Shown: piece after piece, positions 21,912 to 63,344 of the stretch
How positions within the stretch are numbered: the stretch's first letter is position 1
How the letters are laid out: every line of letters starts with the position of its first letter
Assembly: GCA_015066105.1 (NCBI GenBank)
Contig: SVOY01000001.1
Span: 124,001-188,000, forward strand
DNA: 64,000 nucleotides
DNA from: Oscillospiraceae bacterium
Lineage (GTDB): Bacteria > Bacillota > Clostridia > Oscillospirales > Acutalibacteraceae
Reading direction: 5' to 3'
Position numbers and translations under genes: made by a program
The notes under the pieces: generated by a model
Told to the model about the DNA's origin: nothing
What the model saw: only the letters and a program-made list of their open reading frames with translations
Database searches by the model: none

Positions 21912-21947
21912 TTTAATTCCTCCTGTAATAATTAACGGGCAAAATAA

Positions 21948-21977
21948 AAGACCATTATCGGAATAGATAAAGGTCTT
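21948..21977 (-). terminator. terminator after the metallophosphoesterase gene
   Basis: AAGACCATTATC and GATAAAGGTCTT pair with one mismatch, and the minus strand continues with TTTTATTTTG. Confidence 0.65.
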
Positions 21978-22029
21978 CCTAAAAAATATTCCTCTTAATT
22001 ATAACACGTGTAAAATACACTGTCAATAA

Positions 22030-23019: not shown

Positions 23020-23048
23020 ATTATACAGTTAAGTTTTGCAAATGTCAA
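23020..23048 (-). promoter_or_regulatory. promoter of the metallophosphoesterase gene
   Basis: On the minus strand TTGACA-17 bp-TATAAT, both hexamers perfect. It begins just after the terminator of the ncRNA candidate, so the two are separate transcription units. Confidence 0.88.
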
Positions 23049-23049
23049 A

Positions 23050-23654
23050 TAAAGTAAAAATAAAAGCCGCTACTTTTTCGGTAACGGCTTTTGATTTATT
23101 ATAAGATGTCGTCTTATTTTTTTTATTATGATATTTAATTGTCCTGTTATCCCTTTTATTCACTGTGATTTTTATTATTAAACCTTTGGTTTCGGCAGGT
23201 TACTTGAAAGGGGAGTAATATATTCTCAACCTTAAGTTATGCTTCTGCCCTTATCTTATCGTTGTGAATGCCTTGATTTATCGGGCCTTCTCCGTGCCCG
23301 TCAGATACACCTTCTTCGGTATCTGTTCTTCAGTATTAAATCAATTCTCCTTGGCTACGGGATATTTTGTTTTCTTCATCTCCTTCCTTCCTCTGCAGGA
23401 AAGAGCACTTAAAAGTGATTTTCTTTATATATTCAAGTCGAATCGTATCGATCTGATAATCTTTATTTTACGTTACAAAACACTGCAACCTAAGCTTACT
23501 GACCTTGACCGTTCCTGATGTCTGAGGCGGCTTGCTCTGCTCACCTGACCTCGACAGCGGTTAACCGTCGTTTTAAATTTAGTCCTTGTAATGTTATCAA
23601 ATCGTACGGTTTATACTAAACAGTACATTGGTAACACCCCTTTCTTTTTTCTGT
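23050..23654 (-). ncRNA. candidate large structured non-coding RNA (~600 nt)
   Basis: No convincing gene occupies this 600-base stretch. On the minus strand it begins at a consensus promoter and ends at a strong terminator. Local hairpins (plus coordinates): 23604-23626, 10 bp with one mismatch; 23520-23549; 23406-23417; 23302-23325, CAGATAC/GTATCTG; 23282-23300, CGGGC/GCCCG. A perfect 8-bp long-range helix pairs 23637-23644 with 23206-23213 and would close most of the molecule. No tmRNA, RNase P or SRP signature was recognised. The size and host suggest large ornate RNAs such as ROOL or OLE, but the family is not established from sequence alone. Confidence 0.65.
23062..23092 (-). terminator. 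terminator of the ncRNA candidate
   Basis: A 12-bp near-perfect stem, AAAAGCCGTTAC with GTAGCGGCTTTT on the minus strand, followed by ATTTTTACTTT. Confidence 0.85.
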
Positions 23655-23660
23655 GGCTTC

Positions 23661-23689
23661 ATTATATATTATTTTCAGCTAAATGTCAA
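23661..23689 (-). promoter_or_regulatory. consensus promoter of the ncRNA candidate
   Basis: On the minus strand TTGACA (23684-23689), 17-bp spacer, TATAAT (23661-23666). Both hexamers match the sigma-A consensus exactly, implying strong expression. Confidence 0.88.
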
Positions 23690-23759
23690 TAGTTTTCAAC
23701 AAAACAGAAATATTTTATATAATATGCACAATAAGAATGAGGCGAGCGGTATAAACAAA

Positions 23760-23798
23760 GCCCCTTTTTCCGTTTTTGTTACATTCGGAAAAAGGGGG
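23760..23798. terminator. terminator between PHP gene and ncRNA promoter
   Basis: CCCCTTTTTCCG pairs with CGGAAAAAGGGG. T-rich sequence follows on both strands; it closes the minus-strand PHP gene's downstream side. Confidence 0.75.
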
Positions 23799-23831
23799 AT
23801 TTTTGTTTAATTTAAACAATGGGCAGGCTGA

Positions 23832-63267: not shown

Positions 63268-63344
63268 CCGCTCATGGCGCAGCTGGATAACGCAGCAGAT
63301 TCCGATTCTGAAGAACGGGGGTTCGAATCCCTCTGGGCGGGCCA
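63268..63344 (+). tRNA. tRNA-Arg (anticodon CCG)
   Basis: 77 nt with encoded CCA. The acceptor CCGCTCA pairs with TGGGCGG (G-U at one position). The D arm GCGC-AGCTGGATAA-CGC, the T arm GGGGG-TTCGAAT-CCCTC and the anticodon loop T-T-CCG-A-T (63300-63306) are all present. It decodes CGG. Confidence 0.95.

Follow-up and report, generated by a model that had tools for sequence, protein, structure and literature searches.

We examined the gap between two genes in a 64,000-nucleotide stretch of DNA (the window) from a 2.48-Mb draft genome that is 85% complete. One neighbor was named PHP-like by the initial annotation and has no Pfam match; the other is a metallophosphoesterase gene (Pfam PF00149). 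Between them lies an RNA unit of approximately 590 nt on the minus strand, with the following extent and boundaries:

23661..23689, minus strand: promoter TTGACA-17-TATAAT, score 12/12
23060..23654, minus strand: RNA gene (predicted transcript), its start placed approximately 7 nt past the −10 box; identified by promoter, terminator, and full-length homologues
23062..23092, minus strand: intrinsic terminator of 12 pairs, approximately 570 bases past the promoter

The promoter of the next gene (23048..23020) likewise scores 12/12, and only three TTGACN-16/18-TATAAT sites occur on either strand of the 64 kb. These observations bear out the initial description of a gene-free gap bounded by a consensus promoter and a 12-bp terminator and followed by a separate perfect promoter for the next gene. 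When folded, the 596-nt RNA reaches −144.3 kcal/mol (z = −4.7), and none of 100 shuffled sequences folded as well. Behind the PHP-like gene, a long inverted repeat at 23748-23809 (CCCCCTTTTTCCG..CGGAAAAAGGGG) is likely the terminator of that gene; a similar arrangement with different letters is present in homologue L002.

We found no sign of a conserved protein in the gap. The longest open reading frame (ORF) listed there has 84 amino acids, and a Pfam search with this ORF and a 57-amino-acid ORF, both on the plus strand, returned no match. The best homologue match of the 84-amino-acid ORF (L005, E 4e-6 over 53 amino acids) is broken by a stop, as expected if it merely reflects similar DNA, and the remaining matches are short. 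ORFs of 50-79 codons are present in some copies on either strand, but none longer than five codons is conserved on either strand across the homologues. A longer frame over the 5′ element (KERGVTNVLF...) was rejected because no start codon occurs at a fixed position and the ATG in the window overlaps the −10 box; in L024 an ATG lies slightly further down, and the frame is not strictly excluded in that copy. We consider it very likely that a genuine RNA gene occupies the minus strand of the gap.

Copies of the RNA and their genomic surroundings

Using a covariance model built on the 57-nt 5′ element, we identified 16 copies within the genus, in 14 of its 34 genomes (8 of the 15 of best quality), with two copies each in G003 and G008. 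The weakest accepted copy scored 56 bits and the following match 23 bits. Fifteen copies, including that of the window, are full length (499-602 nt) and share a common plan; the remaining one (L009) ends at a contig edge and entered the peptide table only, so that structural work covered 15 of 16 copies. TTGAC is found 50-70 nt ahead of GTGTTACC in all 15 full-length copies, and a terminator hairpin with a T run could be selected in 14, L022 having a hairpin with a weak T tail. The proposal of a large structured RNA under a promoter and terminator of its own is supported, since the unit is preserved in the 15 full-length copies. The group III copies (L011-L014) carry an extra stretch between the −10 box and the Shine-Dalgarno box, CAATCAAAC...GATTG, which could form a short hairpin.

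DNA matches confined to the promoter region (such as L015-L018, L020, L028, L029, and L031-L034) or to the terminator end (L025) were excluded from the copy count, and L021, L023, L026, L027, and L030 are additional pieces of copies already counted. The match in L019 extends into the 5′ element (query 5-75), and the model finds nothing in its genome up to E 3. Two promoter-like matches fall outside the genus (G051 and G053). In wider samples, which had stricter filters, overlapped, and included the genome of the window itself, the model matched three genomes out of 300 in the family and a single genome in each of the order (394 sampled), the class (291), and the phylum (398), all within the genus. 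A pattern scan of genome contigs returned 19 stretches, 14 of which are true copies; the other five (L061, L068, L069, L075, and L077) were dropped as they lie inside long ORFs of other bacteria. The organisms carrying these 14 copies are labeled Clostridia bacterium or Oscillospiraceae bacterium, and 12 of the record titles name the ruminant gut (SIG582 and SIG583 give no source). Phage and plasmid collections contained no blastn match to the RNA, and we regard eight pattern matches in IMG/VR as chance, since their similarity stops short of the rest of the element.

The genes around the copies are not constant. By eye, a PHP-like gene precedes L001, L002, and L005; L003, L004, L007, and L008 follow a gene for a flavin adenine dinucleotide (FAD)-dependent oxidoreductase, with L022 near one; L011-L014 are near a glmM-like gene; and L006, L010, and L024 lie elsewhere. 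A homologue of the FAD-dependent oxidoreductase is also close to the window copy (Pfam). Conversely, the 5′ element is absent from 11 of the 15 PHP-like loci examined among those found, including loci in genomes that carry the RNA (G032, G016, G008, G006, and G005). Downstream genes vary as well, with a metallophosphoesterase (Pfam) in one case and a zinc-ribbon protein, a QueT-like transporter, and a Gfo/Idh-like protein (by eye) in others, and in L006, L007, L010, and L022 the downstream gene is convergent. This variation argues that the RNA is not an obligate leader. Rather, a constant promoter-RNA-terminator unit set among changing neighbors, four of them convergent, makes it most likely that the RNA would act in trans.

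In L012, L013, and L014, a conserved leader, GCGGTCAGTTCGA(A/G)ACCTTCCTGACCTAAACCG, stands ahead of the gene named by eye as a QueT-like transporter. It might be a preQ1-type element, although an Rfam search of these leaders gave no preQ1-type match.

Conserved 5′ element and long-range helices

The most conserved stretch of the RNA consists of a Shine-Dalgarno (SD) box, six bases, and an ATG followed by four codons and TAA. The features of this element and of the helix P1 that starts behind it are as follows:

23635..23643, minus strand: Shine-Dalgarno box AAAGGGGTG, in 16/16 copies
23611..23628, minus strand: five-codon ORF ATG TAC TGT TTA GTA TAA (MYCLV), in 16/16 copies
23604..23626, minus strand: hairpin H1, GUACUGUUUA/UAAACCGUAC, whose outer 4 bp compete with P1
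23594..23608, minus strand: helix P1, 5′ strand CGUACGAUUUGAUAA (complement search, pair counts)
23444..23459, minus strand: helix P1, 3′ strand UUAUCAGAUCGAUACG (complement search, pair counts, isolated-domain fold)

The box is the strongest match to the anti-SD sequence within the RNA in all 15 full-length copies, and its variants AAAGGAGTG and AAAGAGGTG retain scores of −8.6 and −9.6 kcal/mol. The anti-SD sequence was assumed, since a search of the draft genome for the 16S 3′ end did not find it. The encoded peptide is MYCLM in 10 copies, MYCLV in 4, MYRLV in 1, and MHCVA in 1, each ending in TAA. In 29 of 300 shuffled RNAs, too, the best anti-SD site reached −8.6 kcal/mol or better and preceded an ATG, and the case for the ORF therefore rests mainly on its conservation. 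Anti-SD-like sites inside the RNA are hardly enriched (61 GGAG/GAGG/GGGG versus 53.3 expected).

The ORF segment doubles as the segment that forms H1, five of whose nine pairs are disrupted in L024. Local stems at the 5′ end display almost no covariation (one pair with a double change), and in group III the stem GUGUUA/UAACAU does not hold. P1 pairs CGUACGAUUUGAUAA of the 5′ element with UUAUCAGAUCG-N-UACG further along. In 14 of 15 copies the 5′ strand finds its best complement at the homologous site, and the remaining copy, L024, does so with a shifted strand; in 10 of the 15 RNAs none of 60 shuffles matched it. Pairing holds in 84.9% of cells, compared with 25-46% (maximum 45.6%) when the strands are slid against each other. 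Sequence changes in P1 are mostly one-sided: two pairs have double changes, a count as high in 399 of 500 shuffles, and the covariation score of 0.226 was equaled by 18 of 500. One pair changes from GC to AU in common among four related group III sequences.

The initial annotation had drawn a different helix, a perfect 8-bp pairing said to close a domain of approximately 440 nt:

23637..23644, minus strand: 5′ strand GAAAGGGG, which would mask the Shine-Dalgarno box in the window RNA
23206..23213, minus strand: 3′ strand CCCCUUUC

The pairing of GAAAGGGG with CCCCUUUC is exact in the window RNA (−13.8 kcal/mol), and the full-length minimum-energy fold takes this helix, not P1. As an 8-bp helix it is not conserved in the 14 other full-length copies, whose best partners are weaker (−4.3 to −8.6 kcal/mol) and mostly at other sites, although a remnant of 4-5 bp may persist at a comparable place in L002 and L012-L014. 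Its 5′ strand overlaps the conserved Shine-Dalgarno box ahead of the five-codon ORF, and the helix may be a mask peculiar to the window copy. Mean P1 pairing in the full-length ensemble is 0.78 for the window RNA and 0.34 for L004; the value for L022 and L024 is 0.00, but another site was scored there. The box is mostly paired in full-length ensembles (unpaired fraction 0.11 for L001 and L024), that of the window RNA included. When the 5′ domain of the window RNA is folded in isolation, P1 forms and the box is touched by one 2-bp pair alone.

Further elements were recognized along the remainder of the RNA:

23472..23489, minus strand: hairpin P2, GUUGCA/UGUAAC (by eye; homologues have a hairpin with a different stem here)
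23406..23417, minus strand: hairpin CACUUUUAAGUG (CACAGUUAUGUG in L002)
23380..23405, minus strand: octaloop hairpin CUCUUUCCU[GCAGAGGA]AGGAAGGAG
23369..23377, minus strand: conserved stretch GAAGAAAAC, probably single-stranded (alignment)
23359..23364, minus strand: helix Pa, 5′ strand UAUCCC (complement search, pair counts, group III fold)
23148..23153, minus strand: helix Pa, 3′ strand GGGAUA (complement search, pair counts, group III fold)
23264..23269, minus strand: helix Pb, 5′ strand AUUCAC (by eye in L001, L002, and L005)
23158..23163, minus strand: helix Pb, 3′ strand GUGAAU (by eye in L001, L002, and L005)
23245..23250, minus strand: helix Pc, 5′ strand GGGCAG (by eye)
23194..23198, minus strand: helix Pc, 3′ strand CUGCC (by eye)

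Pa connects GUAUCUC with GAGAUAC close to the 3′ end, with CCC/GGG in place of CUC/GAG in L001 and L005. In 11 of the 13 sequences with an anchor, its best complement lies just 3′ of a GAAGAAAA-like stretch; the anchor is absent from L006 and L008, and L010 and L024 fail the test. Across the 11 of 15 copies counted (8 distinct rows), 83.3% of positions are paired, a figure favored by choosing the strands by motif, and the two pairs with double changes were matched by 112 of 500 shuffles. RNAalifold, applied to the four group III RNAs, recovered P1, Pa, and a Pc equivalent (GGAUAAG/CUUAUCC); 10 of the 103 pairs are doubly changed, and covariation contributes little to the energy (−2.12 of −75.58 kcal/mol). 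In one comparison, the L012 and L014 rows start 27 nt early, in the promoter, and lack the terminator.

We also projected single-sequence folds onto relatives, using 11 of the 15 copies in 22 ordered, non-independent pairs. This yielded 176 compensatory pairs, where the null averaged 88 and never exceeded 107 in 200 draws, and 717 broken pairs against 854 in the null. Compensatory changes overall are at twice the null; taken individually, P1 and Pa contain few double changes. The sequences show a 5′ domain closed by P1 and a 3′ domain closed by Pa.

A recurrent feature of the RNA is an octaloop on interchangeable stems. Loops of the forms GCAGAGGA, GUAAAGAA, and GUGAAGAA (including the GURAAGAA type) cap stems of 4-9 bp in 11 hairpins distributed over 9 of the 15 RNAs, at differing positions and on mostly unrelated stems. 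Dinucleotide-shuffled sequences contained a mean of 0.07 and a maximum of 1, a comparison that is descriptive, as the consensus GYRRAGRA was written after the loops had been seen. The exchange of stems beneath a fixed loop suggests that the octaloops could make tertiary contacts or bind protein. A search by eye for kissing partners of the octaloops gave none that was consistent, and the literature on octaloops offered nothing useful. In the 3′ half of L006, L008, and L010, another recurrent loop, GGAUGUAGU or GGAUGAAGU, sits on the stems GUCAGUC/GAUUGAC, AUCGGUC/GACCGAU, and GUAAGUC/GACUUAC.

Relation to known RNAs and possible modes of action

Few bacterial RNA classes longer than 500 nt are known. 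Nothing credible emerged from scans against all Rfam models, which covered the window (gathering threshold), the region (E up to 10), and the 14 homologue loci (E up to 1); this supports the earlier suggestion that the RNA may be new. Fourteen weak matches in the region (E 0.03 to 10) were all below gathering, many of them on the terminator hairpin, and were set aside as chance, and a SNORD75 match in L006 (1927-1978) lies outside the RNA. The window itself has two gathering matches only, a ribosomal protein L10 leader (RF00557, 4888-5042, plus strand, 67.6 bits) and a tRNA (63268-63341). Membership in ROOL, which the initial annotation had raised without confirming, was tested by a direct search. 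The ROOL model (RF03087) alone found nothing in this genome or in 14 control genomes, while among 150 genomes of the same bacterial family it detected one true ROOL (G089, 349.6 bits, E 3.4e-82), and we therefore rejected membership. OLE and GOLLD, whose models belong to Rfam, had no match in the all-Rfam scans; the positive control covered ROOL only. No description of the RNA was found in a search of the open-access literature.

The RNA nevertheless shares general properties with several known systems. OLE usually adjoins the oapA gene. According to a recent report, OLE RNA is approximately 600 nt, forms mutually exclusive helices, and binds ribosomal protein bS21 via an SD/anti-SD mimic (PMC12054373); the window RNA resembles it in size, structure, and Gram-positive host, but in the window RNA the SD is at the 5′ end, ahead of an ORF. 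ROOL is of similar size (574 model positions), occurs in the same family, and is patchy (1 of 150 genomes), yet blastn of the 15 RNAs against ROOL copy L122 gave short stretches only (best E 0.004) and no extended similarity. Recent structures show that three large bacterial RNA classes build RNA-only complexes, with ROOL and GOLLD forming RNA-only cages, and GOLLD, too, is a large structured RNA that has both conserved and variable regions (PMC12286853). A 520-nt long noncoding RNA of Lactobacillus salivarius is similarly restricted to a narrow group, and no function was identified for it (PMC5643018); it lies on a megaplasmid and its great abundance was measured, whereas the window RNA lies on a 639-kb contig with groEL nearby. 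The odc1 and uORFC motifs also place a short ORF inside a conserved RNA fold, but upstream of the gene they are thought to control (PMC8632094), whereas the window RNA has its own terminator and no constant neighbor.

The RNA has its own promoter and terminator, keeps its pairing beyond its sequence (though P1 and Pa alone have few double changes), and contains no conserved coding frame beyond the five-codon ORF. We consider it highly probable that the unit is a standalone large structured RNA gene and that it represents a real new family. What would be new is a family of such RNAs with an unusual, translated-looking 5′ end. Our best overall explanation, a new large standalone RNA family possibly coupled to translation via its 5′ end, has in our estimation an even chance of being correct in full.

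How might such coupling work? We propose that the RNA would be abundant and act in trans as a folded particle whose 5′ end would engage a ribosome. The five-codon ORF runs to 23611 and the P1 strand starts at 23608, three bases on, so a terminating ribosome would cover the P1 strand. A ribosome on the ORF would then block P1 and a free 5′ end would permit it, coupling the folding or stability of the particle to the translation state. We regard a ribosome-coupled mechanism of this general kind as possible, though we lean against it. Its specific form, in which a ribosome translating or stalling on the ORF decides closure of the 15-bp P1 and the particle thereby senses the translation state, we judge unlikely. 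To our knowledge, no other large ornate RNA has a built-in start codon for such gating, and our literature search found none.

The same features can be read in other ways. A somewhat unlikely but serious alternative is an RNA-only or protein-bound scaffold in the style of OLE, ROOL, and GOLLD, in which the SD-like 5′ end would be an untranslated structural motif and the octaloops tertiary or inter-subunit contacts. Its size, A-rich sequence, recurrent loops on changing stems, and long-range helices would suit a scaffold, for which ROOL and GOLLD offer a precedent (PMC12286853), and H1 could account for conservation of the ORF segment. Against this, each of the three forms of the 5′ box is still complementary to the anti-SD sequence, and the ORF and its stop persist in L024 despite the altered hairpin sequence. 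The concentration of conservation in the SD and ORF element, with much of the remainder poorly kept in sequence, makes it quite unlikely that the RNA is a trans-acting antisense regulator of the RNAIII type, even though the strong promoter and terminator, the multi-domain fold, and conserved stretches that look single-stranded, such as GAAGAAAAC, which would bind target mRNAs, are what such a regulator might display.

Three further readings fare worse. That the RNA is a diverged member of a known large class is very improbable: ROOL does occur in the same family, but neither the window copy nor the 14 homologue loci has a credible Rfam match, and similarity to L122 is limited to the short stretches described above. 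An mRNA for a small protein or type I toxin could explain why some copies have ORFs of 50-79 codons on one strand or the other; it is highly improbable given that no ORF past five codons is conserved on either strand, that the two plus-strand ORFs of the window have no Pfam match, and that compensatory change tracks base pairing. The short ORF, competing helices, and terminator look attenuator-like, as if a leader peptide and terminator controlled the downstream gene, but differing downstream genes, convergent in L006, L007, L010, and L022, largely refute this reading, and the next gene in the window has its own perfect promoter; we hold it to be extremely improbable.

A large RNA that opens with a ribosome-binding element and carries interchangeable octaloop hairpins would offer structural work a new target and, if the proposed coupling is true, would add a second case, after that of OLE and bS21, of a large RNA linked to translation. 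The narrow distribution of the family suggests that other RNAs of this kind may be hidden in single genera and missed by Rfam.

Elsewhere in the window, at 21912-22026 on the minus strand, another perfect promoter (TTGACA-17-TATAAT, first base 22026) precedes an attenuator-like leader of approximately 85 nt. The leader contains the hairpin AAGACC..GGUCUU, then UUUAUUUU, then AGGAGG right before the FAD-dependent oxidoreductase gene, and its fold is of ordinary stability (z = −1.2, with 19 of 200 shuffles as good).
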